In this document: one piece after another, positions 7,287 to 53,837 of the stretch
How the letters are laid out: each line of letters opens with the position of its first letter
Numbering within the stretch: position 1 is the first letter of the stretch
Source of the DNA: Capillimicrobium parvum
GTDB lineage: Bacteria > Actinomycetota > Thermoleophilia > Solirubrobacterales > Solirubrobacteraceae
Reading direction: 5' to 3'
Length of the DNA: 64,000 bases
NCBI RefSeq assembly: GCF_021172045.1
Contig: NZ_CP087164.1
Coordinates: 2,418,001 to 2,482,000, forward strand
Made by a program: the position numbers and the translations under genes
The notes under the pieces: generated by a model
The model's input: only the letters and a program-made list of their open reading frames with translations
The model's database searches: none
Told to the model about the DNA's origin: nothing

Positions 7287-7307
7287 GGGGTGAAGTCGAC
7301 CACCGGA

Positions 7308-7951: not shown

Positions 7952-7999
7952 GCGCCACTCGCGGAGCGCCCACGGGATCTGTACGGTCCCGCAAGGAAA

Positions 8000-8015
8000 C
8001 TGGACACATGGCTAG
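8000..8015. promoter_or_regulatory. Degenerate copy of the palindromic operator
   Basis: CTGGACACATGGCTAG keeps CT-GACA--TG-CTAG of the shared palindrome but loses TTGACA. It lies between the TetR gene end and the 3' end of the SDR gene, away from any gene start, so it may be a relic or chance match. Confidence 0.25.
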
Positions 8016-8063
8016 TTCGAGGCATTGCATCCCGGCTCGGCGTGGCGCGAGCCACAGACGAGG

Positions 8064-19627: not shown

Positions 19628-19944
19628 CGGCACCGGCCTACTCCACGAGCGTCGACAGCGACGCGTACGAGCCCTTCGAGGCGGGCGTGGTCAACTGGCT
19701 GCGCCAGGACGACGACGTGGCGGCCGGGATCTGGGTCTGCCGTCCGGAGGAGCAGCCCGGCATCCACGAGGCCGAGTTCGAGAAGAACGAGACGATCTAC
19801 ATCATCGAGGGCCGCGTCCGCGTGGAGATCGTTGGCGGTGAGACCTACGAGCTGGGCCCGGGGGACAGCGCGGCGTTCGTGAAGGGGACGGTCGGCCGCT
19901 GGAAGGTGCTCGAGGCGGTGAAGGAGTTCTTCGTCTACAGCTGA
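19624..19944 (+). CDS. Small cupin-domain protein
   Basis: A 106-residue single cupin of the DUF861/cupin_3 kind, with [17 protein letters not shown] followed by [13 protein letters not shown]. The first cupin motif has only one or two possible metal ligands (HEAEFEKNE), so metal binding is uncertain. It is translationally coupled to the FAD oxidoreductase by an ATGA overlap. Cupins of this class act as small aminohydrolases, epimerases or sensors; which applies here cannot be told. Its 3' end overlaps the convergent TetR gene by 10 bases. Confidence 0.8.
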
Positions 19945-20564: not shown

Positions 20565-20580
20565 CTTGACAATTGTCTAG
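20565..20580. promoter_or_regulatory. Shared palindromic operator (copy 3), divergent promoter region
   Basis: CTTGACAATTGTCTAG is the most symmetric copy: only one base pair breaks the palindrome. TTGACA at 20566-20571 could be a rightward -35, but no good -10 lies at the right distance and the next gene starts only 14 bases on. It may therefore work mainly as an operator for the divergent pair. Confidence 0.7.
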
Positions 20581-20593
20581 GACGGGGACGCCG

Positions 20594-37194: not shown

Positions 37195-37236
37195 CGGCGG
37201 GGTCCGGACGGGCTCACGCCCACGACGCTAACGGCA

Positions 37237-37265
37237 TTGACTGTCATCTTCAAGTCAGTTACTGT
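37237..37265 (+). promoter_or_regulatory. Promoter with TTGACTGTCAT element (copy 2)
   Basis: TTGACT (37237-37242), 17 bases, TACTGT (37260-37265), then CA. It shares GGCATTGACTGTCAT and the TGTCA after the -10 with the promoter at 32602, while the spacer differs, as expected for conserved regulator contacts. The aldehyde dehydrogenase GTG is 37 bases downstream. Confidence 0.75.
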
Positions 37266-37302
37266 CAAATGGTCGCTGGCCCACGCCTTGGGAGAGAGCC
37301 CC

Positions 37303-38805
37303 GTGCCCGTCCTGTCGTCCGTCAAGCCCCCGCCCGTCGTCGACCGTCTGCTGGCCGAGCCCGCGCGCAAGATGCTCATCGGCGGCGAATGGGTCGAGGC
37401 GAGGTCCGGCAAGACGTTCGAGGTCGTCGACCCGACGACGGCGCGGGTCATCGCGACGGTCCCGGAAGCGGATCGGGCGGACGTCGATGCGGCCGTGGGC
37501 GCCGCCCGTGCCGCGCTCGACGGTCCCTGGTCGCGCCTGCTGCCGCACGAGCGCCAGGCCCTGATCCTGCGCCTCGCGGACCTCGTCGAGGAGCACGGCG
37601 AGGAGATCGCCGCGCTCGAGACGCTCAACCAGGGCAAGCTGCTCGCGGTCGCCGAGACCGTCGAGGTCGAGATGGCCGCGGACTACCTGCGCTACATGGC
37701 CGGGTGGGCGACGAAGCTCGAGGGCTCGACCCTGCAGCTGTCCCCTCGCATGACCGAGGGGGTCGGCTACCACGCGTTCACGCGCCCCGAGCCCGTCGGG
37801 GTGGTGGCGTGCATCGTCCCGTGGAACTTCCCGCACCTCATGGCGGTGTGGAAGGTCGCGCCCGCTCTGGCCACCGGCTGCACGGCCGTGCTCAAGCCCG
37901 CGGAGCAGACCCCGCTGACCGCGCTGAAGTTCGCCGCGCTCGTCGAGGAGGCCGGCTTCCCGCCGGGCGTCGTCAACGTGGTCACGGGCCACGGCGAGCC
38001 GACCGGGGCGGCGCTCGTCAAGCACAAGGGCATCGACAAGATCGCCTTCACCGGCTCGACCGCCGTCGGCAAGCGCATCGGCGTCGAGGCGATGAAGAAC
38101 ATGACGCGGGTGTCGCTCGAGCTCGGCGGCAAGTCCCCGGTGCTCGTGCTCGACGACATCGACCCCGAGTTCATCGGCCCGGCGATGCTCGGCGGGCTGT
38201 TCTTCAACTCCGGCCAGCAGTGCGTCGCCGGGTCGCGCCTGTACGCGCCCGCGCGGCGTTTCGACGAGATCGTCGAGAAGGTCGCCTACTACGCGGACTT
38301 CCTGAAGGTCGGCTCGCCGTTCGACCCCAACGTCCAGCTGGGGCCGGTCGTCTCGCAGGTGCAGCGCGACCGCATCCTCGAGTACATCGAGTCAGGGCGG
38401 GCCGACGGCGCCGAGGTCGTCCTCGGCGGGGGAGTGATCGAGGGCGACGGCTACTTCGTCGAGCCGACGATCCTCGCCAACACGAGCCACGACATGCGGG
38501 TCGTGCGCGAGGAGATCTTCGGGCCGGTGCTCGTCGCGATGCCCTACCGCGACCTCGACGACCTCGTCGAGAAGGCCAACGACACGGAGTACGGGTTGGC
38601 CGCCAGCATCTGGAGCCAGAACCTGAGCCGCGTCCTCGAGCTCATCCCCCGGATCCGGGCCGGCACGGTCTGGGTCAACACCCATGGCGTGCTCGACGCC
38701 AACATGCCGTTCGGGGGCTTCAAGCAGTCAGGCATCGGCCGTGAGCACGGCCGCGCCGCCATCGACCACTACACGGAGACGAAGTCCGTGTGCATCGCCT
38801 ACTGA
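37303..38805 (+). CDS. Aldehyde dehydrogenase
   Basis: A 500-residue NAD(P)-dependent aldehyde dehydrogenase of the usual length. Catalytic Cys307 is in NSGQQCVAGSR and the general base Glu273 in ELGGKSP. The cofactor region has VPWNFPHLMAVWK and FTGSTAVGK. It should oxidise the aldehyde released by the amine oxidases. Only 8 bases separate it from the copper amine oxidase gene, which points to a direct amine to aldehyde to acid sequence. GTG 37303 follows GGGAGAGAG. Confidence 0.93.
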   Translation: MPVLSSVKPPPVVDRLLAEPARKMLIGGEWVEARSGKTFEVVDPTTARVIATVPEADRADVDAAVGAARAALDGPWSRLLPHERQALILRLADLVEEHGEEIAALETLNQGKLLAVAETVEVEMAADYLRYMAGWATKLEGSTLQLSPRMTEGVGYHAFTRPEPVGVVACIVPWNFPHLMAVWKVAPALATGCTAVLKPAEQTPLTALKFAALVEEAGFPPGVVNVVTGHGEPTGAALVKHKGIDKIAFTGSTAVGKRIGVEAMKNMTRVSLELGGKSPVLVLDDIDPEFIGPAMLGGLFFNSGQQCVAGSRLYAPARRFDEIVEKVAYYADFLKVGSPFDPNVQLGPVVSQVQRDRILEYIESGRADGAEVVLGGGVIEGDGYFVEPTILANTSHDMRVVREEIFGPVLVAMPYRDLDDLVEKANDTEYGLAASIWSQNLSRVLELIPRIRAGTVWVNTHGVLDANMPFGGFKQSGIGREHGRAAIDHYTETKSVCIAY

Positions 38806-38813
38806 GGCCACCG

Positions 38814-40943
38814 ATGTCCGACACCACGATCAGCTCCGACCAGCACACCAACGGCGGATCGCCGGTCGCCGGCCACCAGCCGACCACCGCGCCGTCCGCA
38901 CCCGGAGCGGCGGCGCCGCGCGCGACCACCCGTCAGACGCTCAAGAAGGCCAAGCGCGAGCGCCTACTGGCCGCCCACGAACGGCGCCGGGAGCACCTGG
39001 AGCGCCACGCCCATCCGCTCGATCCGCTGTCGCCGTCCGAGACGCAGCTCGCGGTGCGCCTGGTCCGCGAGCACAAGCGCTTCGCCTACGGCATGCGCTT
39101 CTCGATGCTGATGCTCGTCGAGCCCACGCGCGACCAGCTGCACGGGCCGCGGCGCGCGCGCGATCTCGACCGGCGCGCCGAGGTCGTGCTCATCGACGTC
39201 CCGGGACGGACGTCCTGGCGCGTCATGCTGAACCTCACGAAGGCCAAGGTCACGTCCTGGCGCGAGATCGAGGGTCACCAGCCGCCGATCGTCACCGACG
39301 AGTTCGTCGAGGTCGAGGTCGAGGCGAAGTTCGACGGCCGCGTCCAGGAGGCGCTGCGCCGCCGCGGCCTGGACCTCCAGCAGCGCAACCTCGTCAACGT
39401 CGACCCGTGGTCGTCCGGCAACTTCGGCGAGCCCGAGGAGAACGACCGGCGCATCGCGCGCGGCCTGTTCAACATGCGCAACCACGCCGACGACAACGCG
39501 TACGCGCACCCGATCGACGGCCTCTCCGTCGTCTACGACCTCTACGGCGAGGAGATCATCAAGGTCGAGGACGAGGAGGTGCGGCCGGTCCCGTCGGAGA
39601 GCTCGAACTACGCCGCGCACTTCCAGGATCGGTGGCGGACGGATCTCAAGCCGCTGGACATCGTCCAGCCCGAGGGCCCGAGCTTCAGCGTCGAGGGCTG
39701 GCAGGTGCGGTGGCAGAAGTGGAGCTTCCGGGTCGGCTTCAACCAGCGCGAGGGCCTCACCCTGCACGAGGTCTCCTACGACGACGACGGAACGGTCCGG
39801 CCGGTGCTGTTCCGCGCGTCGGTCGCCGAGATGACCGTGCCCTACGGCGACGTGGCGTACATCCAGCGCCGCAAGAACGCGTTCGACGCGGGCGAGTACG
39901 GCCTTGGCCTGCAGGCCAACAGCCTCGAGCTGGGCTGCGACTGCCTCGGCGAGATCCACTACTTCGACACGACGTGCATCGACACGTCGGGCGAGCTCGA
40001 GCCGAAGAACAACGCGATCTGCCTGCACGAGGAGGACGCGGGCATCCTCTGGAAGCACTGGGACCTGCGCACCGACAAGACCGAGGTGCGGCGCTCGCGC
40101 CGGCTCGTCATCTCGTTCATCTCGACGATCGGCAACTACGAGTACGGCTTCTATTGGTACCTGTACCAGGACGGCACGATCGAGCTCGAGGTCAAGGCGA
40201 CCGGGATCGTGCAGACCGGCGCGCTGCACGACGGCGAGACGACGAAGTACGGCACCGAGCTGGGGCCGAACCTGTACGCCCCGCACCACCAGCACTTCTT
40301 CTGCATCCGCCTCGACCCGAGCGTGGACGGCGACCGCAACCAGGTCACCGAGGTGGAGACGGTGGCGGTCGAGGATCCCGAGGAGAACCCGTACGGCAAC
40401 GCGTTCCACCCGGTCAAGCGCACGTTCGCGACCGAGACCGAGGCGCGCCGGCGCGTCAACCAGGACACCGCCCGGGGCTGGCTCATCGAGAGCACCCGGA
40501 CGAAGAACGGGCTCGGCGGGCGCCCCGCGTACAAGCTGGTCGCGGGGGAGAACTGCCTGCCGTTCGCCCGCGAGGGCTCCTCGCTCCACGGGCGCGCCGG
40601 CTACATGTGGAACCACCTGTGGGTGACGCCGTTCGACGAGGACGAGCGCTATCCCGGCGGCGAGTTCCCCAACCAGCATCCGGGTGGCGACGGGCTGCCG
40701 GCCTGGACGGAGGCCGACCGCGGCATCGTCGACCGCGACATCGTCGTCTGGTACGTCCTGGGCCACCACCACCTCGTCCGGCCCGAGGACTGGCCGGTGA
40801 TGCCGGTCGCCCGGATGGGCTTCAGCCTGAAGCCGACCGGGTTCTTCGACCGCAACCCCGCGCTCGACGTCCCGCCGAGCGAGTGCCACGGCGACGCCGC
40901 GTGCGGCGTCGACGCGACGAGCGACGGAGGGTGCTGCGCGTGA
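38814..40943 (+). CDS. Copper/topaquinone primary-amine oxidase
   Basis: A 709-residue copper amine oxidase. Tyr442 in NYEY is the topaquinone precursor, Asp358 (FDAGEY) the catalytic base, and His492, His494 and His653 the copper ligands. About 65 residues at the N-terminus are Ala/Thr-rich and charged, and the C-terminal tail has four Cys (691, 697, 707, 708) not needed by the family. It is related to, but clearly diverged from, the enzyme at 5.4 kb. Cotranscribed with aldehyde dehydrogenase and alpha/beta hydrolase genes, it makes aldehyde, NH3 and H2O2 from a primary amine. Confidence 0.93.
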   Translation: MSDTTISSDQHTNGGSPVAGHQPTTAPSAPGAAAPRATTRQTLKKAKRERLLAAHERRREHLERHAHPLDPLSPSETQLAVRLVREHKRFAYGMRFSMLMLVEPTRDQLHGPRRARDLDRRAEVVLIDVPGRTSWRVMLNLTKAKVTSWREIEGHQPPIVTDEFVEVEVEAKFDGRVQEALRRRGLDLQQRNLVNVDPWSSGNFGEPEENDRRIARGLFNMRNHADDNAYAHPIDGLSVVYDLYGEEIIKVEDEEVRPVPSESSNYAAHFQDRWRTDLKPLDIVQPEGPSFSVEGWQVRWQKWSFRVGFNQREGLTLHEVSYDDDGTVRPVLFRASVAEMTVPYGDVAYIQRRKNAFDAGEYGLGLQANSLELGCDCLGEIHYFDTTCIDTSGELEPKNNAICLHEEDAGILWKHWDLRTDKTEVRRSRRLVISFISTIGNYEYGFYWYLYQDGTIELEVKATGIVQTGALHDGETTKYGTELGPNLYAPHHQHFFCIRLDPSVDGDRNQVTEVETVAVEDPEENPYGNAFHPVKRTFATETEARRRVNQDTARGWLIESTRTKNGLGGRPAYKLVAGENCLPFAREGSSLHGRAGYMWNHLWVTPFDEDERYPGGEFPNQHPGGDGLPAWTEADRGIVDRDIVVWYVLGHHHLVRPEDWPVMPVARMGFSLKPTGFFDRNPALDVPPSECHGDAACGVDATSDGGCCA

Positions 40944-41860
40944 TCGCGGCGCACCCGAGCCGCGAGCTGCGCGAGCTCGCGGCCGAGCTCGCCGCGCTTC
41001 CGGTGCCGGAGACCATCGAGGAGGAGCACGCCTCGTGGAACCGGATCTGCGCGGCGCTCGACGCGGCGCCCGACGCGACGTGGGAGGAGGTCGACGCGGA
41101 CGGCGTGCCGTGCGTGTGGACGTCGGCCGGCCCCAGCGACGCGTGCACGATCCTCTACTGCCACGGCGGCGCCTTCGCGATCGGCTCGCCGTGGCACAAC
41201 CGCGACATGATGTCGCGCATCGCCCGGGCCGCCGGCGGCCGCGTCCTCGGCGTCGACTACCGGCTGGCGCCGGAGCACCCGTTTCCCGCGGCGCTCGACG
41301 ACACGGTCGCCGCGTGCCGCTGGCTGCTCGAGTCGGGCGTCGATCCGGCGACCGTCGTGCTCGCCGGCGACTCCTGTGGCGCGAACCTCGTCCTCGGCGC
41401 TGCGCTGCGCGCGCGCGACACGGGCCTGCCCCTGCCCGCGGCGATCGCGGCCATCTCGCCGTGGGTCGACCTCACGCAGGCCGGGTGGTCGTACGAGACG
41501 AACGCGGCCCGCGATCCGTTCGTGACGAAGGACTCGATGGACTACCTCGCGGCGTCCTACCTGGCCGGCGCGAGCGCTGAGGACCCGGCGGCGTCCCAGC
41601 TGTTCGCCGACCTGGCCGGCCTGCCGCCCGTCCTCGTCCAGGTCGGAGCGGGCGAGGCCTTGCTCGCGGAGTCCGTCTCGCTCGTCGAGCGCCTCGGGCG
41701 CGCCGGCGGCTTCGCGACCCTCGAGATCTGGCCGCACGGCGTGCACGTCTGGCCCATGTGGGCCGCGCGCGTGCCCGAGGCCCAGGCGGCGATCGAGCGC
41801 CTGGCCGCCTTCGCCGTGTCCGCCGTCGCCGGTGCGGCGACGGCGTCCCGAGTCCCCTGA
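40940..41860 (+). CDS. Alpha/beta hydrolase, hormone-sensitive-lipase type
   Basis: A 306-residue alpha/beta hydrolase. The oxyanion motif is YCHGGAFAIGS (near residue 73), the nucleophile motif GDSCGA (near 144), and the catalytic His is in WPHGVHVWP. The GTG overlaps the amine oxidase stop (GTGA). It belongs to the same type as the hydrolase at 31.5 kb, so each half of the region has one. It may open an ester, lactone or amide before or after amine oxidation. Substrate unknown. Confidence 0.88.
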   Translation: MIAAHPSRELRELAAELAALPVPETIEEEHASWNRICAALDAAPDATWEEVDADGVPCVWTSAGPSDACTILYCHGGAFAIGSPWHNRDMMSRIARAAGGRVLGVDYRLAPEHPFPAALDDTVAACRWLLESGVDPATVVLAGDSCGANLVLGAALRARDTGLPLPAAIAAISPWVDLTQAGWSYETNAARDPFVTKDSMDYLAASYLAGASAEDPAASQLFADLAGLPPVLVQVGAGEALLAESVSLVERLGRAGGFATLEIWPHGVHVWPMWAARVPEAQAAIERLAAFAVSAVAGAATASRVP

Positions 41861-41875
41861 GCGAGAGGTCCTGTC

Positions 41876-43981
41876 TTGGCCCGAGATCCGAAGTACGACG
41901 TGCTGTTCGAGCCCATCCGGATCGGGCCGAAGACGCTGCGCAACCGCTTCTGGCAGGTCCCGCACTGCAACGGCGCGGGATCCGAGAAGCCGGGGATGCA
42001 GGCGACGTTCCGCGGGACCAAGGCGGAGGGCGGCTGGGGCGCGGTCTTCACGGAGATGTGCACGATCACCGCCGACGGCGACGTCATGCCGCTCGTCAGC
42101 GCCAAGCTGTGGGACGACGACGACGTGCGCGCCCTCGGCGCGATGTGCGACGCGGTGCACGCCCACGGGTCGCTGGCCGGCGTCGAGCTCCTGCACACCG
42201 GCGGAGCGGCGGCCAACCAGGAGTCGCGCACCCCGGCTCGCGGGGTCAGCCAGGTGCCCAACGACATCATCCCCATGACGAGCTGCCGGGCCATGTCGCG
42301 CGCCGAGATCCGCCAGATGCGCCGGGAGCACGTCGAGGGGTTCCTGCGCGCGCGCCGGGCCGGGTTCGACCTGCTGACGTTCTTCGCCGGGCTCGGCAAC
42401 ATGCCCGTGTACTTCCTCTATCCGTTCTACAACCAGCGCACCGACGAGTACGGCGGCTCGTTCGAGAACCGGATCCGCTTCACGCGCGAGGTGCTCGAGG
42501 AGGTCCGGGGGGTCATCGACGACTGCGCGATCGGCATCCGGTTCTCGATCGACACCCTCGACGAGCCGTTCGGGCTCGGCGCCTGCGGCGTGCGCCACGA
42601 CGGCGAGGGGCGCGACTTCATCGAGGCGCTCGACGACCTCGTCGACTACTGGGACCTGAACATCGGGACGCTGAACTGGGGCGAGGACGCCGGGCCGTCG
42701 CGCTTCTTCGAGTCGAACCACGAGGCGCCCTACACCCGGTCCGGCAAGGCGGTGTCGCAGAAGCCGTGCGTCAACGTCGGCCGGTTCACGGACCCGGACG
42801 TCATGGTCGCGGCGATCACCTCCGGGCAGTGCGACATCATCGGCGCGGCGCGACCCAGCATCGCCGATCCTTTCCTGCCCCGGAAGATCGAGGAGGGGCG
42901 CATCGACGACATCCGCGAGTGCATCGGCTGCAACATGTGCGTGTCGAAGTGGGAGCAGGGCGGCCCGCCGATCGTGTGCACGCAGAACCCGACGAGCGGC
43001 GAGGAGTTCCGGCGCGGCTGGCACCCGGAGCGGGTGCCCGAGGCGGCCAACGCCGACAACGACGTGCTCGTCGTCGGCGCGGGGCCGGCCGGGATGGAGT
43101 GCGCCATGACGCTCGCGCGGCGCGGGATGCGCCGCATCCATCTCGTGGACGCCGACCGGGAGATGGGCGGCCACCTGCAGTGGCTGACGCGGCTGCCGGG
43201 CCTGGGGCAGTGGCGCCGGGTCGTCACGTACCGGCAGACCCAGCTCGCCAAGCTCGCCAACGTGACGTTCGTCCCGGGCACGACCCTGTCGGCCGCCGAC
43301 GTGCTCGACTACGGTGCCGAGTACGTGGTGATCGCGACCGGCTCCCAGTGGCTCGGCGACGGCACGACCAATCTCGGACGGCTCGACCTCCAGGGCGCGC
43401 CGGACGGCAGCGTCCTGACGCCCGAGGACATCATGGCCCGCGGGGCCACCGCCGGTGAGCGCGTCCTCGTCTACGACACCGACGGGTACTTCATGGGCGC
43501 GTCGATCGCCGAGAAGGTGGCCATGGGCGGCAGCGCGGTGACCTACGTCGCGCCGTCGGACACGCTCGCGCCGTACATGCGCTACACGCTCGAGGAGCAG
43601 CGCCAGTACCAGCGCCTGGTCGAGCTCGGGGTGGAGATCGTGCCCCAGACCGTCATCCAGGGCTTCGACGGCCGGCGTGCGCCGGCGGTCCACATCTGGA
43701 GCGGTGCCGAGTCGGTCGTGGAGGCCGACACGCTGGTGCTCGCCTGCCTGCGCACCTCGGCGTGCGCGATCTACGACGAGCTCGCCGAACGGCCCGGTGA
43801 CCTCGACGGCGCCGGCATCCATGGCCTGTTCCTGATCGGGGACGCCCACACGCCGAGCACGATCGCGCAGGCGGTCTTCGGCGGGCACCGGCTGGCGCGC
43901 GAGATCGACTCCGAGGATCCGTCGGTCCCGCTGCCGTTCATCCGGGAGCGGCCGGCGGTCCAGGAGCTCGCCCGCGCGTGA
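41876..43981 (+). CDS. Trimethylamine/dimethylamine dehydrogenase homologue
   Basis: A 701-residue protein aligned end to end with trimethylamine dehydrogenase: FMN barrel (1-345), 4Fe-4S segment Cys349, 352, 355, 368, then FAD-like domains (GAGPAG at 401). Cys31 matches the 6-S-cysteinyl-FMN site. These enzymes N-dealkylate amines, giving an aldehyde and passing electrons to ETF. The active site differs from TMADH: Tyr60 is Met61, Tyr169 is Phe170 and His172 is Leu173, while two Trp (268, 359) and Asp271 remain. TMA itself may therefore not be the substrate. TTG start with GAGAGG before it. Confidence 0.9.
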   Translation: MARDPKYDVLFEPIRIGPKTLRNRFWQVPHCNGAGSEKPGMQATFRGTKAEGGWGAVFTEMCTITADGDVMPLVSAKLWDDDDVRALGAMCDAVHAHGSLAGVELLHTGGAAANQESRTPARGVSQVPNDIIPMTSCRAMSRAEIRQMRREHVEGFLRARRAGFDLLTFFAGLGNMPVYFLYPFYNQRTDEYGGSFENRIRFTREVLEEVRGVIDDCAIGIRFSIDTLDEPFGLGACGVRHDGEGRDFIEALDDLVDYWDLNIGTLNWGEDAGPSRFFESNHEAPYTRSGKAVSQKPCVNVGRFTDPDVMVAAITSGQCDIIGAARPSIADPFLPRKIEEGRIDDIRECIGCNMCVSKWEQGGPPIVCTQNPTSGEEFRRGWHPERVPEAANADNDVLVVGAGPAGMECAMTLARRGMRRIHLVDADREMGGHLQWLTRLPGLGQWRRVVTYRQTQLAKLANVTFVPGTTLSAADVLDYGAEYVVIATGSQWLGDGTTNLGRLDLQGAPDGSVLTPEDIMARGATAGERVLVYDTDGYFMGASIAEKVAMGGSAVTYVAPSDTLAPYMRYTLEEQRQYQRLVELGVEIVPQTVIQGFDGRRAPAVHIWSGAESVVEADTLVLACLRTSACAIYDELAERPGDLDGAGIHGLFLIGDAHTPSTIAQAVFGGHRLAREIDSEDPSVPLPFIRERPAVQELARA

Positions 43982-44655
43982 GCGCGCTGCACGACCGGCG
44001 CTACGCGCTCGCCGCCGCCGCGATCCGGCTGTTCGCGGCGCGGGGGCTCGAGGGCACGACGGTCGAGGAGATCGCCGCCGAGGCGGGCGTCTCGCCGCGC
44101 ACGTTCTTCCGGCACTTCGCCACGAAGGAGGCGGCGGCGTTCCCCGACCACGAGGAGCGCATCCAGGAGCTGCGCGAGCTCCTGGCCGCGCGCCGCGGGG
44201 CGTCGTCGCCGCTGGACGCGGTGCTCGAGGTCACCCAGTCCACCGCGCGCGAGTACTTCGACGAGACAGACCTGTACCGGGCCCGCATCGCCGTCGTGCG
44301 GGCGAACCCGTCGCTGCGGGACTTCGAGCGCGTCGTCGACCAGCAGTACGAGGACGCGATCGCCGGCTACCTCGCTGCTGAGATGCCGCCGGCGGCCGAC
44401 GTCACGCTGCGGGCGCGCGTGATCGCGGCGGGCGTCGTCGCGGCGGTCAACGACGTGCTGGACACGTGGACCACCGACGAGGGCAGCGACCCCGAGGCGC
44501 TCCTGTGGCGCGCCGTCGAGGTCCTGCGCCGCGCCTTCGCCGCGATGGCGGCTCCGGCACCGGAGGATGGCGCCCCGATCGTCATGCGCATGCCCGCTGA
44601 TCTGCGCGACCGCCTCGTCGCGGCCCTCACGGCAGATCGAAAACTATCCACTTGA
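43978..44655 (+). CDS. TetR-family regulator, FFRxFATKEAAAFPDHE type
   Basis: A 225-residue TetR protein whose GTG overlaps the stop of the TMADH homologue. The HTH reads VEEIAAEAGVSPRTFF then RHFATKEAAAFPDHEE, near residues 29-60. It pairs with the TetR at 33.9 kb as a second subgroup. Its last codons (LST-stop) are formed by the promoter motif of the ETF operon, which overlaps the stop codon. It probably regulates that motif and the TMADH genes; this is inference. Confidence 0.87.
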   Translation: MSALHDRRYALAAAAIRLFAARGLEGTTVEEIAAEAGVSPRTFFRHFATKEAAAFPDHEERIQELRELLAARRGASSPLDAVLEVTQSTAREYFDETDLYRARIAVVRANPSLRDFERVVDQQYEDAIAGYLAAEMPPAADVTLRARVIAAGVVAAVNDVLDTWTTDEGSDPEALLWRAVEVLRRAFAAMAAPAPEDGAPIVMRMPADLRDRLVAALTADRKLST

Positions 44656-44680
44656 CAACTTTCGCCTCCGTCGCGACACT
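44642..44680 (+). promoter_or_regulatory. ETF operon promoter with AACTATCCACTTGACAA motif (copy 1)
   Basis: The 17-base motif at 44642-44658 contains TTGACA (44652-44657). After 17 bases comes GACACT (44675-44680). The TetR stop codon TGA lies inside TTGACA. The identical 17 bases are found at 48587, again over a stop codon and with the same 17-base spacing. Confidence 0.78.
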
Positions 44681-44727
44681 CGGCATCCCTCCCGCCGCGG
44701 GCGGGACGAGCGAGCGGAGGAGCGCTG

Positions 44728-45517
44728 ATGCTGCGGGTGGTGGTGGCGGTCAAGCAGGTCGCCGCGCTGGACGACGAGTTCGAGCTCGAGCCGGGTGCGG
44801 CCGAGGTCGATCCGGACTTCGTCGAGCGCGAGCTCAACGAGTGGGACGCGTTCTCCGTCGAGGCGGCCGTGCAGATCAAGGAGGCCGAGGGCGAGGCTGA
44901 GGTGGTCGTCGTGACGGTGGGCGACGAGGAGGCCGACGAGGCGCTCGTCGACTGCCTGGCGCGCGGCGCCGATCGCGCGGTCCGGGTCGACCTGTCTGCC
45001 GACGACCCCTTGATCGTCGCTCGTGCACTGGCCGCCGTCGTCGAGCGGGAGTCCGCCGACCTCGTCCTGTGCGGGGTGCAGTCCTCCGACGCCGCCGGCC
45101 AGGCGACCGGCGTCGCGCTCGCGGCGTACGCCGGACTGCCGCATGTCGCCGTGGCGCGGCGGATCGACTTCGACACGGCGGCGCGGCGGCTGCGTCGACC
45201 GGGAGCTGGAAGGCGGGCTGGTGGAGGAGCTCGAGCTGCCCGCGCCGGCGCTGGTGACGGTCCAGACGGGCGCCAACGAGCCGCGCTACGCGACGTTGCG
45301 CGCGATCAAGCAGGCGGCGGACAAGCCGCGCGAGGTCGTGTCGGCGGAGGACCTCGGCCTGGATGCGACGGCGTTGGACGCGGCGCGGGGCGCTCGGGTG
45401 ACGGCGCTGTCGCCGCCGCAGGCGACCGGCCGGGCGCAGATGCTCGAGGGCGACGCCGACGACGTGGCGGCGGCGATCGTCGAGATCGTGCGCGAGCGGA
45501 TCGGGGCGCCGGCATGA
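44728..45517 (+). pseudogene. etfB: Electron transfer flavoprotein beta subunit with one frameshift
   Basis: The first frame gives an EtfB N-terminus (VVAVKQVAALDDEFEL, LNEWDAFSVEAAVQIKE, GVQSSDAAGQATGVALAAYAG) up to about 45192. The expected continuation, VDRELEGGLVEELELPAPA then TGANEPRYATLRAIKQA, is in another frame from 45194 to TGA 45517. One extra base (or two missing) in CTGCGTCGAC accounts for it. Together about 262 residues, normal for EtfB. The protein carries electrons from flavin dehydrogenases such as the TMADH homologues. It may be a sequencing error, a real lesion or, less likely, programmed frameshifting. AGGAG precedes the ATG. Confidence 0.85.
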
Positions 45518-46464
45518 GCGGCGTGGTGGTGGTCGCCGAGCACCGGCGCGGCGAGGTGCGCGACGTCACGTTCGAGCTGATCGGCCTGGCGCTGGAGCTG
45601 AAGGCCGCCGGGGCGGGGCCGGTGGCGGTGCTCGTCGTCGGCCGCGAGGCGCAGGCGCTGGCGGAGTCGCTGGCGGTCGAGGGCGTGGACGCCGCGCTGG
45701 CGGCGCCCGCCGACGCGGAGGGCTTCGAGCCCCACGTGACCCAGCGGGCGGTCGAGCGCGTGGTCCAGCAGCGCGCGCCGCTCGTGGTGCTGGCCGGCCA
45801 CACGGTCGACGGGGCGGGGTTCGCGCCCGCGGTCGCGGCGGCCGGCGGGCTCGGGTTCGCCTCCAACGTCCTGTCGGCGGCGTGGGCCGACGGCGCGCTG
45901 TCCGCGCGGCGCGGCGCCTACGGCGACCGCCTCGTCGCGGAGCTCGCGTTCGACGACCGGCCGGCGGTGCTGATGGTGCGCGCCGGCGCGTATCCGGCCG
46001 CCGCGCGGTCTGGCTCGGCGCCGGCCGTGGAGGTCCTGGAGCTCGACGACGCCTCGGGCCCGACCGCCCATCTCGGGTTCCGCGAGGCCGACACCTCGGG
46101 GGTCGACATCACCAAGAGCGAGTTCCTGCTGTCGATCGGCCGGGGCATCGGCGAGCAGGACGAGATCGAGCGCTTCGAGCATCTCGCCGAGCGGCTCGGG
46201 GCGACCCTGAGCGCGTCGCGGCCGCTGGTCGACGCGGGCTGGATCGACAGCGCGCGCCAGGTCGGCCAGTCCGGGCGCACGGTCAAGCCGAAGGTGTACC
46301 TCGCGCTGGGCATCTCCGGGGCGGTGCAGCACCTGGCCGGCATCCGCGACGCCGAGATGATCATCGCGGTCACCACGGACGCCGATGCCCCCATCTTCGG
46401 CGTCGCGCACTACGGCGCCGTCGCCGACGTGCACGACCTCGCCGACGCCCTCGAGGCGCTCTGA
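45514..46464 (+). CDS. etfA: Electron transfer flavoprotein alpha subunit
   Basis: A 316-residue EtfA. The FAD-binding C-terminal part is intact: GQSGRTVKPKVYLALGISG followed by AVQHLAGI, with KSEFLLSIGRGIG before it. EtfA with EtfB forms a soluble dimer that accepts electrons from amine dehydrogenases and hands them to a membrane quinone reductase. Its ATG overlaps the etfB stop (ATGA), so loss of EtfB synthesis would also reduce EtfA. The membrane Fe-S oxidoreductase gene follows 13 bases later. Confidence 0.92.
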   Translation: MSGVVVVAEHRRGEVRDVTFELIGLALELKAAGAGPVAVLVVGREAQALAESLAVEGVDAALAAPADAEGFEPHVTQRAVERVVQQRAPLVVLAGHTVDGAGFAPAVAAAGGLGFASNVLSAAWADGALSARRGAYGDRLVAELAFDDRPAVLMVRAGAYPAAARSGSAPAVEVLELDDASGPTAHLGFREADTSGVDITKSEFLLSIGRGIGEQDEIERFEHLAERLGATLSASRPLVDAGWIDSARQVGQSGRTVKPKVYLALGISGAVQHLAGIRDAEMIIAVTTDADAPIFGVAHYGAVADVHDLADALEAL

Positions 46465-46477
46465 CCCCGAGCCGGCC

Positions 46478-48600
46478 GTGACCGCCGCAGCGCCGCCCAC
46501 CCGCGAGGTCTTCTGGCACATGCCCGCCTGGGCCGAGGTGCTCTGGTACGTCCTCGCGGTCGCCTCGGTCGCCTCGGTCGCCTCGGTCGCGGTGTTCGCG
46601 TGCGGCGTGGCGCGGCCGGTCGTGAAGTACCGGCGGGGGCGGCCCGGGAACCTGCCGCCGGTGCGCGAGCTGCCGGCGCGGATCGCGGCGGCGTGCCGCA
46701 CGGTGTTCGCGCACGCGTCGATCAAGCGGCGCGACCCGTACGTCGGCTCGGCGCACCGCCTCATGTTCTACGGCTTCCTCACGCTCTTCGCGGGGACGGT
46801 CGTGCTGGCCATCAACACCGACGTGACGGAGCGGTTCTTCGGCTGGCGCTTCTTCGAGGGCGACTTCTACCTCGGCTACTCGATCGTGCTCGACGTGCTC
46901 GGGGTGGCGCTGCTGGCCGGGCTGGTGATGATGATGGTCCGCCGGGCGCGCCGCCCGCCGCAGCTGGACTACCGGCGGCCCGACCGCGAGCCGGGCGACC
47001 CGGACCAGGACCGGCGCGCGTACCGGATCGGCGACTGGCTGTTCGTCGGCGCGCTGCTCTATCTGGTGCTGACCGGCTACCTGCTCGAGGGCGTGCGCAT
47101 CGCGATGGACGAGCCGGGCCACGACGCGTTCTCGCCCGTCGGCTGGCTCAGCGCGCAGGCGATCGGCGTCCTCGGGCTCTCCGACGGCGTGCTCGGCACG
47201 CTGCGGCACGTGATCTGGTGGTCGCACGGCCTCGTGGCGATCGTCTTCGTCGCGTCGATCCCGTACACGAAGGCGGCCCACATGCTCACGAGCTTCGCGA
47301 GCCTCGTGCTGCGCGACCCGCTGGCCGGCCGGCGGCTGCGCCCGATCCCGCCCGAGCTCGAGCACGAGCCGGCGGGCTACGGCGTGCTGGCGGACTTCTT
47401 CACCGAGCACCTGCTGCAGCTCGACGCGTGCACCAAGTGCGGCAAGTGCCACGTCGCGTGCCCGGCCAATGCGACGGGCCGGCCGCTGTCGCCGCGCGAC
47501 GTCGTGCTCGACCTGCGCGAGCTGGCCAACCACGGCGGCATGGACGTGCCGGTGATCGGCGACGAGCACGTGCGCGAGGACACGCTGTGGTCGTGCATGC
47601 AGTGCAACGCGTGCGTGGAGATCTGCCCGGTCGGCATCGAGCAGGCGCCGATGATCAACCAGATGCGCCGCCGGCTCGTCGAGGAGGGACGGATGCAGCC
47701 GGCCCTGCAGAAGACGCTGCAGACCATCCAGAAGTCCGGCAACTCGTTCGGCGAGAGCAAGCGCAAGCGGGGGCGCTGGACGCGCGAGCTGGACTTCGAG
47801 GTCCAGGACGCGCGCAAGGAGCCCGTCGACGTGCTGTGGTTCGTCGGCGACTACGCCTCCTTCGACCCGCGCTCCCAACAGGTGACCAGGTCGGTGGCGC
47901 GTCTGATGCACGCGGCGGGGGTGGACTTCGGCATCCTCTACGACGGCGAGCAGAACGCCGGCAACGACGTCCGGCGCGTCGGCGAGGAGGGGCTCTTCGA
48001 GGCGCTGGCGCAGACGAACATCGCGGCGCTCTCCGGCTGCGAGTTCAACCGGATCGTCACGAGCGATCCGCATTCGCTCAACACGCTGCGCAACGAGTAC
48101 CCGCAGCTCGGCGCGACGTGGACGGTCACCCACCACACGGCGTTCCTGCTCGAGCTGGTCGAGGAGGGCCGGCTCTCGCCGGTGCGCCCGCTGGACCTCC
48201 GCGTCACCTACCACGACCCGTGCTACCTCGGCCGCCACAACGGCGGCTACGACGCCCCGCGGGCGCTGCTGGAGCGCATCGGCTGCGACCTGGTCGAGAT
48301 GCCGCGCAACCGCGACAACAGCTTCTGCTGCGGCGCCGGCGGCGGGCGCATCTGGATGACCGACCCGCCGGGCACCGAGCGCCCGTCGGAGAACCGGATC
48401 CGCGAGGCGGTGGGGCTCGGCGAGCTCGACCACTTCGTCGTCAGCTGCCCCAAGGACGTCCGATGTACGAGGACGCGATCAAGACGTCGGGCCACGCGGA
48501 CCGGATCACGCTGCGCGAGATCACCGAGCTGCTGGAAGAGGCGGTGGCTCCGCCGGAATCGCCGCCGCCGATGGCCGCGGCACACGAACTATCCACTTGA
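46478..48600 (+). pseudogene. Membrane Fe-S oxidoreductase (ETF:quinone reductase type) with frameshift near 3' end
   Basis: From GTG 46478 the frame encodes an N-terminal membrane domain of about five to six spans, like nitrate reductase gamma. Two 4Fe-4S motifs follow (CTKCGKCHVACPA near residue 318, CMQCNACVEICPVG near 373), then CCG-type domains (CYLGRHNGG, CCGAGGGR). At about 48463 the reading SCPKDV needs a one-base correction to continue as MYEDAIKTSGHADRITLRE and end at TGA 48600. Genes of this kind next to etf reduce quinone with ETF electrons. A tandem GCCTCGGTC repeat near 46560 makes VASVASVASV in span 1. Confidence 0.83.
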
Positions 48601-48625
48601 CAAGCTTGGCCGGCGCGCATACGGT
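48587..48625 (+). promoter_or_regulatory. Promoter with AACTATCCACTTGACAA motif (copy 2)
   Basis: The motif at 48587-48603 is identical to that at 44642. TTGACA (48597-48602), 17 bases, TACGGT (48620-48625) gives a better promoter than copy 1. The stop codon of the Fe-S oxidoreductase gene lies inside TTGACA. The GcvT-like gene starts 27 bases downstream. Confidence 0.82.
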
Positions 48626-48652
48626 CGCCCGGCCCGAACGAGGAGGAGCGCC

Positions 48653-49786
48653 GTGTCAGGGACCGGCCAGGAGGACCAGCTGCTGCACAGCCCCGTGCAC
48701 GAGCGCATCGTGCGCGGCGACGCCGAGGTCATGGACGTCTACGGGATGGCCCAGCCCGTCGTGGCCGAGGACGTCGAGCTCGAGTACCGCGCGGTGCGCG
48801 AGGGCGTCGGCATCCTCGACTTCTCGCCGCTGCTGAAGGTCGACGTCGAGGGTCCGAACGCGAAGGAGCTCCTGAACCGGGCGTTCGCCCGCGATCTCGC
48901 CAAGGTCGCCACCGGGCGCATCGCATACGGCCCCGTCCTCGGCGAGGACGGTCTGATGCGCGACGACTCGACCGTGGCCGTGCGCGGCGACGATCGCCTG
49001 CGCGTGGCGGGCAGCCCGCTCATGCCGCCGGAGATCGTGCCGTACGCCGAGAGCGTCGGGCTGACCGCGACCGAGCGCCGCTCCGAGCTCGCCCACCTGA
49101 ACATCCAGGGGCCGCGCAGCCGCGACGTCCTCGCCCGCCTCACCGACGCCGACGTGTCCAACGCGGCGTTCCCGTACTACACGATCAAGGACGGCATCCC
49201 CGTCGCCGGAGTGAAGGACGCGTACGTCGCCCGGATGGGCTACACCGCCGAGCTGGGCTACGAGCTCATGGTCCCCGCCGACGCGGCGCTCGACGTCTTC
49301 GACGCCCTGATGGAGGCGGGCGCCGAGTTCGGCATCCGGCCCGTCGGGGGCGCCGCGATCATGATGGTCCGCATCGAGGCCGGGATGGTCATGGGCGAGT
49401 TCGAGTACGACACCCGGACCTCGCCGTGGGAGTGCGGCCTCGGATGGGCGGTCGACCTCGAGAAGGGCGACTTCCGCGGCCGCGACGCGGTGCTGCGCCT
49501 GCGCGACGAGCGCCGGCAGCGCCTCGTGGGGGTCGTCCTGGAGCGCGGCGAGGACGGGGCGACCGGCGCGCCGCTGCAGTCCGCCGGGGGCGAGGCGATC
49601 GGCGCGGTCACGATGTCGATGCCGTCCCCGTACCTCGGCGGCAAGACGCTCGCCCTGGCGCGGGTCGACGAGGCGCACGCGGCCCCGGGCACGAGCGTCC
49701 GGGCCGCCGTCGACGGCGACGAGATCCCCGGCGAGGTCGTCTCGATCCCGGTCTACGACCCCGAGCGCAAGCGCGTTCGCAGCTAG
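48653..49786 (+). CDS. GcvT-like tetrahydrofolate aminomethyltransferase
   Basis: A 377-residue aminomethyltransferase-fold protein from GTG 48653 with GAGGAG before it. It has GILDFSPLLKVDVEGPNA near residue 55, LNIQGPRSRDVLARL near 145, YTAELGYELMVP, and the C-terminal GcvT barrel segment starting KGDFRGRDAVLRL. Proteins of this fold move a one-carbon unit from an N-methyl or methylene-amine to tetrahydrofolate. Placed 9 bases before a TMADH homologue, it probably traps the formaldehyde made by demethylation as methylene-THF. A demethylase role of its own is also possible. Confidence 0.87.
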   Translation: MSGTGQEDQLLHSPVHERIVRGDAEVMDVYGMAQPVVAEDVELEYRAVREGVGILDFSPLLKVDVEGPNAKELLNRAFARDLAKVATGRIAYGPVLGEDGLMRDDSTVAVRGDDRLRVAGSPLMPPEIVPYAESVGLTATERRSELAHLNIQGPRSRDVLARLTDADVSNAAFPYYTIKDGIPVAGVKDAYVARMGYTAELGYELMVPADAALDVFDALMEAGAEFGIRPVGGAAIMMVRIEAGMVMGEFEYDTRTSPWECGLGWAVDLEKGDFRGRDAVLRLRDERRQRLVGVVLERGEDGATGAPLQSAGGEAIGAVTMSMPSPYLGGKTLALARVDEAHAAPGTSVRAAVDGDEIPGEVVSIPVYDPERKRVRS

Positions 49787-49795
49787 GAGGCGACG

Positions 49796-51958
49796 ATGGC
49801 GCGCGACCCGAAGTACGACGTCCTCTTCGAGCCCGTCCAGGTCGGGCCGAAGACCCTGCGCAACCGCTTCTGGCAGGTGCCGCACTGCAACGGCGCTGGC
49901 TCCGAGCGGCCGGGCATGCAGGCCGAGTTCCGGGCCATGAAGGCCGAGGGCGGCTGGAGCGCCGTCTTCACCGAGGCGTGCACCATCACGCCCGACAGCG
50001 ACGTCATGCCGCTCGTCGGCGCCAAGCTCTGGGACGACGGCGACGTGCGCAACCTCTCGCTGATGACCGAGCGCATCCACGACCACGGCGCGCTCGCCGG
50101 AGTCGAGATGTGCGCCGCGGGCGGGATGGCGGCGAACTCCGAGAGCCGCGCGCCCGGCCGGGTCGTGTCGCAGATCCCGCACGAGTTCAACTACATGGCC
50201 AACGGCCGGGCGCTGGACCGCGAGGAGATCCGCCGGCTGCGGCGCGAGCACGTGGCCGGGGCGTTGCGCGCCCGCGCGGCCGGCTTCGACCTGCTCACGC
50301 TGTTCGTCGGCCTCGGCGCCTTCCCGATCTACTTCCTCTATCCCTTCTACAACAAGCGCACGGACGAGTACGGCGGGTCGTTCGAGAACCGCATCCGGTT
50401 CACGCGCGAGGTCCTCGAGGACATCCGCGAGGCGATCGACGACTGTGGGATCGGGTGCCGGTTCGTCATCGACACGCTCGACGAGCCGTACGGCTACGGC
50501 GAGCAGGGCATCCGCTACGACGGCGAGGGCGTCCAGTTCATCGCGGCGCTCGACCACCTCGTCGACTACTGGGACCTGAACATCGGCACGCTCAACTGGG
50601 GCGAGGACGCGGGCTCGTCGCGGTTCTTCGCGATGAACCACGAGGCGCAGTACACGCGCATCGCGAAGACCGTCACGACGAAGCCCTGCGTGAACGTCGG
50701 GCGGTTCACCGACCCGGACGTGATGGTCGAGGCGATCACCTCCGGCCAGTGCGACATCATCGGCGCCGCGCGGCCGTCGATCGCCGACCCGTTCCTGCCG
50801 AGCAAGATCGAGGAGGGCCGGCCCGACGACATCCGCGAGTGCATCGCGTGCAACGTGTGCGTGTCGCGCTGGGAGATGGGCGGCCCGCCGATCTGGTGCA
50901 CGCAGAACCCGACGTCGGGCGAGGAGTACCGCCGCGGCTGGCATCCCGAGCGCTTCACGACCGCGGCGAACGCGCAGAACGACGTGCTGGTCGTCGGCGC
51001 CGGGCCCGCCGGCCTGGAGTGCGCGATGGTGCTCGGCAAGCGCGGGATGCGCCGGGTCCACGTCGTCGACGAGCAGCCCGAGCCCGGCGGCCACCTGAAC
51101 TGGCTGACGCGCCTGCCCGGCCTGGGCACGTGGAGTCGCGTGACGCAGTACCGCCGGACGCAGATCGACAACCTCAAGAACGTCCAGTTCGTGCCCCGGA
51201 CCCGGCTCTCGGCGTCCGACGTGCTGGACTACGGCGCCGAGATCGTGATCGTGGCGACGGGCGCCGAGTGGGCCCGCGATGGGATGAACGGGGCGATGCA
51301 CGCCCGGATCGACGGCGCGGACGCCAGCCTGTCGCACGTCTGCACGCCGGAGCAGATCGCGCTGGAGAGCAAGGCGCACGGCGAGCGCGTCGTCGTGGTC
51401 GACCACGACGGCTACCACATGGGCGCCACGATGGCCGAGCTGCTGGCCGGCCGCGGGGCGTCCGTCACGCTGGTCACGCACTTCGACTCGATGGGCCCGT
51501 ACATGCGCTACACGCTCGAGGAGCAGCGCCAGTACCAGCGGCTCGTGGAGCTCGGCGTCCGGATCGTGACGCAGACGCTCGTCACGGCGGTCACGCCGGC
51601 GCAGGCCTCGATCGTGCATGTGTGGTCGGGCGAGGAGGGCACGGTCGAGTGCGACACCGTCGTCCTCGTCACGCAGCGCGTCTCGCGCAGCGAGCTCTAC
51701 GAGGAGCTGCGCGCGGACGCCGGCGCGGTCGAGGAGGCCGGTATCGCCGCCGTACACCTGATCGGAGACGCCTGGCAGCCGGGCATGGTGGCGCAGGCCA
51801 CGTTCTCCGGGCATCGGCTGGCCCGGGAGATCGACACGGATGATCCCGCGACGCCGCTGCCGTTCATCCGCGAACGGCGCCTGCTGAACGCCACGGAGCA
51901 GGACTACGTGCTGGGCTCGCCGGCGCTGGCCCACGGGCTCGACGTGCTCGCGACCTGA
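49796..51958 (+). CDS. Trimethylamine/dimethylamine dehydrogenase homologue
   Basis: A 720-residue TMADH homologue, highly similar to the one at 41.9 kb throughout. Cys31 is the covalent FMN site; Cys349, 352, 355 and 368 bind the 4Fe-4S cluster; Trp268, Trp359 and Asp271 are kept. As in its paralogue, the TMADH residues Tyr169 and His172 are Phe170 and Leu173, and Tyr60 is Ala61 rather than Met61. The pair may divide two N-alkyl substrates or two steps. It shares a promoter with the GcvT-like gene and should feed the ETF upstream. Confidence 0.9.
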   Translation: MARDPKYDVLFEPVQVGPKTLRNRFWQVPHCNGAGSERPGMQAEFRAMKAEGGWSAVFTEACTITPDSDVMPLVGAKLWDDGDVRNLSLMTERIHDHGALAGVEMCAAGGMAANSESRAPGRVVSQIPHEFNYMANGRALDREEIRRLRREHVAGALRARAAGFDLLTLFVGLGAFPIYFLYPFYNKRTDEYGGSFENRIRFTREVLEDIREAIDDCGIGCRFVIDTLDEPYGYGEQGIRYDGEGVQFIAALDHLVDYWDLNIGTLNWGEDAGSSRFFAMNHEAQYTRIAKTVTTKPCVNVGRFTDPDVMVEAITSGQCDIIGAARPSIADPFLPSKIEEGRPDDIRECIACNVCVSRWEMGGPPIWCTQNPTSGEEYRRGWHPERFTTAANAQNDVLVVGAGPAGLECAMVLGKRGMRRVHVVDEQPEPGGHLNWLTRLPGLGTWSRVTQYRRTQIDNLKNVQFVPRTRLSASDVLDYGAEIVIVATGAEWARDGMNGAMHARIDGADASLSHVCTPEQIALESKAHGERVVVVDHDGYHMGATMAELLAGRGASVTLVTHFDSMGPYMRYTLEEQRQYQRLVELGVRIVTQTLVTAVTPAQASIVHVWSGEEGTVECDTVVLVTQRVSRSELYEELRADAGAVEEAGIAAVHLIGDAWQPGMVAQATFSGHRLAREIDTDDPATPLPFIRERRLLNATEQDYVLGSPALAHGLDVLAT

Positions 51959-51990
51959 CCGGTCGGCGGCGCCGGTAGCCTGCGGGCCCC

Positions 51991-52581
51991 ATGACGACCG
52001 CCGGCGCAACCAGGCCGTCCTACGGAGAGGGGCGTCAGGCGCTGCTCGACGCGGCGATCCGCGTGGTCGCCGCGTCCGGCCTGCGGGGGCTGACGATCCG
52101 CGCCGTCGGCGCCGAGGCCGGCGTGACCCACGGCCTGGTCCGCCACCACTTCGGCTCACGTGAAGCGCTCATCGAGGAGACGCTGAAGTACTCCGCGCAG
52201 GTGTCCATCGCGGCGTCGTCGCTGGACCCGGAGGACGGCGACATCGACGGGCTGGCGGCCAACCTCCCGGCGATGGCGGAGCAGCAGGGCGAGCTGCAGG
52301 CGTTCCAGTTCGAGCTCCTGCTCGAGGCGCGGCGCCGGCCGGAGCTCCTGCCGCATGTCCGCGCGATCTACGACGAGTACCTGGAGGCGACCGCGGACGG
52401 GCTGCGGCGGGCCGGGGTTGACCACGACGCGGACCTCGCGCTGCTCGTCATGGCAGCGCTCGACGGCCTGGTGCTCCAGCAGGTGGTGTTCGGCCAGCCC
52501 GAGCGCACGGAGCGGGTCATCGGCCGGCTGCACGACGTGCTGCGCGCGGTCGGCGGCGGCGGTGGCCGCCGTCCAGGCTGA
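51991..52581 (+). CDS. TetR-family regulator, palindrome-associated type
   Basis: A 196-residue TetR protein with HTH VGAEAGVTHGLVRHHFGSREALI at about residues 40-62 (VGAEAGVTHGLV then RHHFGSREALI). It shares AFQFELLLEARRRPELL with the TetR proteins at 7.4 and 19.9 kb, though no palindrome copy is seen at its own start. It follows the TMADH homologue by 32 bases and may be read from the same promoter. It could act on the distant palindrome sites. Confidence 0.87.
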   Translation: MTTAGATRPSYGEGRQALLDAAIRVVAASGLRGLTIRAVGAEAGVTHGLVRHHFGSREALIEETLKYSAQVSIAASSLDPEDGDIDGLAANLPAMAEQQGELQAFQFELLLEARRRPELLPHVRAIYDEYLEATADGLRRAGVDHDADLALLVMAALDGLVLQQVVFGQPERTERVIGRLHDVLRAVGGGGGRRPG

Positions 52582-52610
52582 TCGACTGCCCGCCGGCCAC
52601 CGCCCTGCCG

Positions 52611-53837
52611 TCAGGCGGGCTGCGCCTCGCGCGCGACGACCTCCCGCGCGGCCTCGGCATCGCCCCACCACGGCATCAGGTTCGACGCGTCGTCGAACCC
52701 GTTGACGATGCGTGACGCGAGTCCCGGGATCGCGCCCGCGGCGCCGAGGACCTCGACCACGTGCTCGGCGGGCGGCGCCAGCAGCATGTTCGTCCACTCG
52801 GTGACAGGCCGCGCCTCCTGCCAGTAGCGGTCGAACGTCGCCTGCATCCACGCGCGATCGAAGCCGTCCCGCCGGTCCACGATGGAGGCGAGGTAGTGGC
52901 CGGCGCACTTGGCGGCGTTGTTCGAGCCCTGGCCGGTGATCGGGTCGTTGAGCACGACGACGTCGGCCATCCCCAGGATCGGCGCGCCCGAGGGCAGCTC
53001 AGCCACCGGGTGGCGCACGGTCGGCGTGAGACGGCCGGCGAGGATGCCGTTCGGGTCGGTGAGGCGGGCGCCCCGCGCACGCTCGGCCTCCCAGGGCATG
53101 TGGCGCTCGAGGATCTCGAGGCTGCGGGCGAGGTGCTCGTCCGGCGTTGACACGTCGCCCCAGCAGTCCATCGGCCCGCCCGGGATGCCCTCGAAGACCA
53201 TGATGTGGCAGGGGCCGGTCGTCGTGAGCGCCGGAAACCAGAAGTACTCGCCGACGCCCGGGATGAGGTTGAACGTGACGGCCGGGAAGTCGTCGCGGTC
53301 GCGGTAGCCCTCGACGTACGTCAGGGCGAGCGCCCGCTGCGGCTCACCGTACGGAGACCGCTCCTCGTCGCGGCCGAACAGCCGGCCGATCTCGCCCTTG
53401 CCGCTGGCGACGACCACCAGGTCGTGGCTGCGGGCCAGGTCGTCCAGCTCGGCCACGCCCGCATCGGCGTGGCGCAGCTCCCCGCCGCGCTGCGTGAGGA
53501 GGTCCATCCATGCCGGTATCTTGACGCGCTGGTCGACGGACTGAGCCGGCGCGGTGAGCCGGGCCGCCCAGTCGATCACCGTCGAGCCCTCCGGCCCGAC
53601 GACGACGAGGCCGATGCCCTCGACCGGCGGGCACTCGTCGTCCCAGAGGTTCAGCCCCAGGTTGCGCTCGGTCTGCAGGGCGCGGTCGAACATGCACTGG
53701 CTGGAGAGCACCCGCCCGGTGCGGATCTCCTCGCCGGTCCGGTTCGTCACGACCGTGACCTCGAAGCCGTTCTGAAGCAGGCCGAGCGCGAGCTCGAGCC
53801 CCGCCTGTCCTGCTCCGACGATGGCGATCTTGCTCAT
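52611..53837 (-). CDS. StyA-like FAD-dependent monooxygenase
   Basis: A 408-residue flavoprotein resembling styrene/indole monooxygenase large components. It has the N-terminal IVGAGQAGLELALGL, a GKGEIGRLF segment near residue 146, and DVVVLNDPITGQGSNNAAKC near 292. Such enzymes use FADH2 from a separate reductase to put one oxygen on an alkene, indole or heteroatom. No small flavin reductase gene (StyB type) is beside it. It is in a leftward pair with an SDR 30 bases upstream, suggesting oxygenation followed by dehydrogenation. Substrate unknown. Confidence 0.85.
   Translation of the reverse strand: MSKIAIVGAGQAGLELALGLLQNGFEVTVVTNRTGEEIRTGRVLSSQCMFDRALQTERNLGLNLWDDECPPVEGIGLVVVGPEGSTVIDWAARLTAPAQSVDQRVKIPAWMDLLTQRGGELRHADAGVAELDDLARSHDLVVVASGKGEIGRLFGRDEERSPYGEPQRALALTYVEGYRDRDDFPAVTFNLIPGVGEYFWFPALTTTGPCHIMVFEGIPGGPMDCWGDVSTPDEHLARSLEILERHMPWEAERARGARLTDPNGILAGRLTPTVRHPVAELPSGAPILGMADVVVLNDPITGQGSNNAAKCAGHYLASIVDRRDGFDRAWMQATFDRYWQEARPVTEWTNMLLAPPAEHVVEVLGAAGAIPGLASRIVNGFDDASNLMPWWGDAEAAREVVAREAQPA

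Follow-up and report, generated by a model that had tools for sequence, protein, structure and literature searches.

A predicted TetR-type operator over the -35 boxes of two promoters for methylated-amine breakdown in Capillimicrobium parvum

Two neighboring operons of Capillimicrobium parvum are preceded by the same 17-base word, and in both places the stop codon of the preceding gene lies within a TTGACA hexamer, which raises the question of what the repeated sequence is for. The window, meaning the whole stretch of DNA that was analysed, comprised 64,000 nt of the forward strand (GCF_021172045.1, NZ_CP087164.1, positions 2,418,001–2,482,000). An exact repeat at 44642 and 48587 had been reported in the initial annotation, and both copies of the 17-mer, AACTATCCACTTGACAA, were found there (44642–44658 and 48587–48603), with no further match at up to three mismatches in the window and none in shuffled sequence. 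The stop codons also lie as described, TGA 44653–44655 in TTGACA 44652–44657 and TGA 48598–48600 in TTGACA 48597–48602. Over the whole genome, a single contig of 5,953,270 bases, AACTATCCACTTGACAA occurs exactly twice, and the next-best match carries three mismatches; a genome-wide promoter word was rejected, as there are two copies only.

All genes around the two copies are on the forward strand. An MftR-like TetR gene (43978–44655), whose score against the MftR model is below its cut-off, ends in the first copy and is followed by etfB-like (44728–45517) and etfA-like (45514–46464) genes and by a gene for an Fe-S oxidoreductase with CCG and Fer4 domains (46478–48600). After the second copy come genes for a protein with a GcvT-like folate-binding demethylase domain (48653–49786), a trimethylamine dehydrogenase (TMADH)-like flavoprotein (49796–51958) and a further TetR family protein (51991–52581), which starts 32 bases after the TMADH-like gene and is the last gene of its unit. 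For comparison, two Solirubrobacterales MAG contigs were used, JAJTCK010000059.1 and SHVA01000010.1 (G055 and G059). Searched by tblastn with EtfB of G059, the etfB-like gene aligned in two frames, with an assembly frameshift at ~45181–45193. The Fe-S protein aligned with its G059 ortholog in frame 2 over 46487–48460 and in frame 1 over 48448–48576, so that the gene reads in frame 2 to ~48460 and then, after a one-base shift, in frame 1 to the TGA at 48598–48600; the final ~45 residues are found in frame 1 only. In the assembly as it stands, frame 2 lacks a stop at 48600 and remains open through the second copy and gcvT to 49786. Because the frame breaks fall in nearby genes, both may be assembly errors. 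The LST ending that had been ascribed to both upstream proteins is present in the TetR protein encoded by 43978–44655 (KLST); for the Fe-S protein, the ending ELST is that of the frame-1 ORF 46600–48600, and it is shared only if the frameshift is an assembly error.

When 61 related genomes were searched with up to two mismatches allowed, the motif turned up twice in G059 and once in G055, which belong to a different family of the order; a further match, in G048, fell inside apparent coding sequence. One copy in G059 stands before etfB, and the other lies between purU and a divergent gcvT-like gene and points at gcvT; in G055, the motif precedes the gcvT-like gene, and no second copy of it was found there. 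The proposed tie between the ETF operon and the GcvT/TMADH operon is therefore upheld by a motif that stands before the orthologous genes in both of these genomes, which are from a different family. Among 232 genomes of the order, the gcvT-like ortholog (E 6e-223 or better) was found in three, and the motif lies upstream of it in all three, as the initial annotation had expected of related operons, and before etfB in two of them. The pattern AACTATCNNNTTGACAA gave 30 matches at up to one mismatch in the 232 genomes, against 2 for a reversed-pattern control, and 5 of the 6 exact matches are directly before etfB or gcvT-like genes. One of the six, in G139, is without explanation. The 24 one-mismatch matches were dismissed as chance or ordinary -35 boxes, none being beside homologs of the cluster genes in loci of ~3 kb. 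No upstream motif was found at 12 loci of the class with distant GcvT homologs (E 1e-115 to 1e-132) or at 17 loci of the order with distant GcvT homologs (E 1e-61 to 1e-69), where the best matches had at least five mismatches; at two of the order loci (L037 and L050), the gene starts near a contig end with almost no upstream DNA to scan.

A stop codon in a -35 box is tempting to read as a control device, by which translation of the upstream gene would modulate the promoter, and the overlap is indeed seen at both copies in the C. parvum genome. The relatives correct this reading. The purU stop of G059 lies 14 bases before the motif, the motif in G055 is likewise free of an upstream stop, and the genes before the motif vary from genome to genome, so the importance given to the overlap by the initial annotation is not borne out; nor did any sign emerge that the motif had travelled with its downstream operon and taken the place of a stop. 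The two upstream genes of C. parvum are moreover unrelated, one of the two overlaps requires the frameshift to be an assembly error, and two stops would share a frame by chance in a 1-in-3 event. Functional coupling of stop and promoter was rejected on the strength of the relatives without overlap, and we regard it as extremely improbable. As the sequences read, the overlap and the LST ends are an incidental by-product of the control sequence, since no overlap with an upstream stop occurs outside the C. parvum genome: the stops fall in TTGACA because TGA is part of this hexamer and each upstream gene happens to reach it in a matching frame, and the LST ends are identical because identical DNA is read in the same frame.

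The 17-mer belongs to a longer, imperfect inverted repeat of 20 bp, AACTATCCAnnTG[A/T]CAAGTT, which lies over the -35 box. On the forward strand before etfB, the 20-mer reads AACTATCCACTTGACAACTT (P1, 44642–44661), with a -10-like hexamer GACACT at 44675–44680; before the gcvT-like gene, it reads AACTATCCACTTGACAAGCT (P2, 48587–48606), with TACGGT at 48620–48625. The operator consensus was AACTATCCA nn TGACAAGTT and close variants; across 12 sites (five before etfB or gcvT and seven before copper amine oxidase or M20 genes), it was AACTATCCA nn TG[A/T]CAAGTT, with positions 1, 4–8, 13 and 15–17 invariant. The inverted repeat is weak, as pairing between its two arms covers 4–6 of 10 positions in the 12 sites and 5 of 10 in each of P1 and P2. 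In both promoters, TTGACA is exact and the 17-base spacers that had been claimed are present, but the -10 hexamers each match TATAAT at only 3 of 6 positions. A strict sigma-70 scan of 43900–52700 reported no promoter, by which standard the -10 boxes are weak. When a TAnnnT-like -10 at 17 nt was scored over five etf/gcvT promoters, none of 20000 shuffles did as well, the fit in G055 being poor; in sites with T at position 14, including the window paralog at 7306, the corresponding value against shuffles was 0.0003, the amine oxidase site of G196 having been left out of this test as its -35 is not exactly TTGACA. Overall, the motif behaves like a promoter element that carries a regulator site.

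The protein encoded by 51991–52581 contains a TetR_N domain (PF00440, E 9.8e-12, 44.9 bits against a cut-off of 24) and TetR_C_31 (PF17940, E 1.6e-21). A TetR gene of the same kind is present in all three gcvT clusters, and the G055 and G059 orthologs are 57–59% identical to it with the same recognition helix, THGLVRHHFGSR; the deeper branches of a small TetR tree were not resolved. Relatives of this TetR at E ≤ 1e-40 numbered 14, in 11 of the 232 order genomes. Near those of G114, G116, G119 and G196, AACTATCCAnnTGTCAAGTT was found with 0–2 mismatches, and the operators in these four genomes stand before copper amine oxidase or M20 peptidase genes. With up to two mismatches allowed, the pattern AACTATCCANNTGNCAAGTT gave 19 sites in 14 of the 232 order genomes (reversed-pattern control, 5), 12 of them no more than ~13 kb from a TetR relative. 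A thirteenth, in G194, is found at the edge of a contig, upstream of an ORF that resembles copper amine oxidase genes, the TetR being on a different contig. Six sites were set aside as chance: of the five whose surroundings were inspected, L111, L113, L114 and L115 are inside ORFs and L110 runs over the start of an ORF, and L112 is the sixth. An operator site is present in 8 of the 11 TetR-bearing genomes versus 6 of the 221 others, for which a Fisher value of 2.5e-9 is too optimistic because the pattern was refined after four TetR loci had been viewed and the genomes are related. No operator site was found in the TetR-bearing genomes G195, G041 and G094, and class genomes outside the order gave no sign of the operator at up to two mismatches (4 of 196, against 2 of 196 for the control). 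In the 3-kb locus of one genome outside the order, G234, the two best matches, with 5 and 6 mismatches, are both just upstream of its TetR.

No operator is present directly before the TetR gene 51991–52581 itself. Elsewhere in the window, a paralogous operator on the forward strand, GACTAGACAAATGTCAAGTT (7306–7325; ACTAGACAAATGTCAAGT near 7307), lies between a copper amine oxidase gene (5364–7286, reverse strand) and a paralogous TetR gene (7373–7951, forward strand), and another, CTTGACAATTGTCTAG (20565–20580, forward strand), is placed between a paralogous TetR gene (19935–20537, reverse strand) and an OYE-like ORF (20573–22663, forward strand). A further operator match at 7998–8017, just after the paralogous TetR gene 7373–7951, drives no clear gene; it was left out of the table of 12 sites.

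Position 14 of the operator is A in 5 of 5 etfB/gcvT sites and T in 7 of 7 copper amine oxidase/M20 sites. At the A sites, the gene runs in the AACTATCC direction; at the T sites, it runs the opposite way and TTGACA lies on that strand (as the variant TTGACG in the T site of G196). The identity of base 14 thus goes with the direction of the promoter in 12 of 12 sites (Fisher 0.0013, uncorrected for the relatedness of the genomes). In AACTATCCAnnTGxCAAGTT, x = A places TTGACA on the AACTATCC strand and x = T places AACTTGACA on the other strand. Tentatively, a single base of a conserved repressor operator may set the direction of the promoter, although we hold this to be somewhat less likely than not. 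If it does, single substitutions could rewire one repressor clade between oppositely oriented gene sets with the operator kept. The sites form a small natural operator series in which promoter direction follows one base, and this correlation is one unusual feature of the regulon.

Taken with the TetR relatives, the repeated 17-mer is probably most of a TetR-family repressor operator over the -35 boxes of two sigma-70-like promoters, and the TetR-type repressor encoded by 51991–52581 is the likely regulator. Such an operator accounts for the conservation outside the -35 box, in which the initial annotation had already suspected a regulator. An activator or an alternative sigma factor could also leave a block of this sort: class II activators bind just upstream of -35, which is where AACTATCC is located, and this block, which would be the upstream contact of an activator touching sigma region 4, is invariant in the five etf/gcvT promoters. 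Relative to the gene, however, the block is reversed in 7 of 7 amine-oxidase/M20 sites and the -35 lies on the opposite strand, an arrangement easier to reconcile with an operator than with a directional activator site, and the conserved CAAGTT beyond the -35 would be left unexplained. We therefore consider an activator or sigma-factor element unlikely.

The motif might instead be the site of another regulator such as the MftR-like TetR encoded by 43978–44655, which abuts P1 and is the TetR nearest to it, and regulators often adjoin the genes they control. No relative of this protein was detected (tblastn, 1e-5) in the motif-bearing stretches of G055 (11 kb) and G059 (17 kb), its relationship to the other TetRs is no more than distant, and its paralog at 33935–34657 has no such motif nearby; its role as the regulator is accordingly quite unlikely. 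Identity of P1 and P2 at 17 of 17 bases, the two central bases included, would also be expected if a short block of promoter sequence had been copied not long ago, by duplication or gene conversion, for which a shared regulator would not be needed. The flanks of P1 and P2 diverge almost at once on both sides, however, and in the genomes of the other family the motif stands before these genes too, with its central bases varied, which makes copying very improbable.

With the TetR encoded by 51991–52581 as repressor, a dimer would cover the -35 and block RNA polymerase at P1 and P2. P1 would drive etfBA and the Fe-S protein as an electron-transfer module, and P2 the GcvT-like protein, the TMADH-like protein and TetR itself, so that feedback is expected because the repressor lies in the P2 unit. 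An N-methylated amine or its product may release TetR, upon which demethylase, electron acceptor and repressor would rise together. We predict from the sequences a genuine shared control element and a new regulon of a known kind, which would provide, for the little-studied bacteria of the Solirubrobacterales type, a concrete set of regulator, operator and two operons that serve to break down methylated amines. In the open-access papers searched, none was found on the operator AACTATCCAnnTG[A/T]CAAGTT, and no description of a TetR with copper amine oxidase, of a TetR with dimethylglycine or of overlap between a stop codon and a -35 box.

The proposed regulon resembles TetR repressor/operator systems in the TetR_N and TetR C-terminal domains. 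A short inverted repeat that covers the -35, close to the genes that would be controlled, recalls such systems too, but its arms are only about half symmetrical. BetI, the choline-responsive TetR, shares the linkage to methylated-amine genes, and ~55 N-terminal residues of the 51991–52581 protein match BetI models, but the NCBIfam scores of 46.9 and 46.3 bits are below the cut-offs of 118 and 201.3. Passages of PMC12093977 describe dgcAB-fixAB sets (with purU and gbcA) for glycine betaine and dimethylglycine, known from Vibrio and Pseudomonas, note DUF3483 for DgcB and name GbdR and SouR as the activators used by P. aeruginosa. Compared with the sets in those passages, C. parvum likewise has a TMADH/OYE-like flavoprotein, an Fe-S oxidoreductase and two ETF subunits, but adds a GcvT-like protein and has a predicted TetR in place of GbdR and SouR (PMC12093977). 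The TMADH-like flavoprotein is of the NADH:flavin oxidoreductase type that marks DgcA. In the Fe-S protein, Fe-S and CCG domains were found and DUF3483 was not, at E 1e-5 or 1e-3, and because of this it was not filed as DgcB. For the same reason the predicted substrate is named only as an N-methylated amine, with no narrower assignment. The TMADH-like flavoprotein matches trimethylamine dehydrogenase (PDB 1djn) over nearly its full length (E 2.5e-209). G059 further resembles the sets of those passages (PMC12093977) in having purU and a GbcA-like Rieske oxygenase, which scores below the GbcA cut-off.

A second operator-like repeat was seen in the window at 7998–8017, where it reads AACTAGCCATGTGTCCAGTT on the minus strand and lies just after the paralogous TetR gene (7373–7951); no clear target gene for it was seen at that place. 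Related sites also occur in G234, a genome of the class but of a different family: just upstream of its TetR relative, two TCCTGTCCGTTTGTCAAGGT-like copies stand in tandem (locus L125, 1347–1443). The TetR gene in genome G055 is adjoined by a pyridoxal-dependent decarboxylase gene (locus L032, 7517–9010), and an ORF judged by eye to resemble it is found in the G059 cluster (locus L033, 819–2177).

At window 35821–44655, genes for an aldehyde dehydrogenase, a second copper amine oxidase (38790–40943), a putative alpha/beta-hydrolase-like ORF, a second TMADH-like gene (41876–43981) and an MftR-like TetR (43978–44655) follow in series, and the predicted operator is absent upstream of this series. 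The window encodes two MftR-like TetRs, the other at 33935–34657, with a mutual identity of about 47–50%.

One-base-type frameshifts were observed in etfB (45181–45193) and in the Fe-S oxidoreductase gene (at about 48460), the latter frame, as assembled, being open into gcvT (46385–49786, 1133 amino acids).
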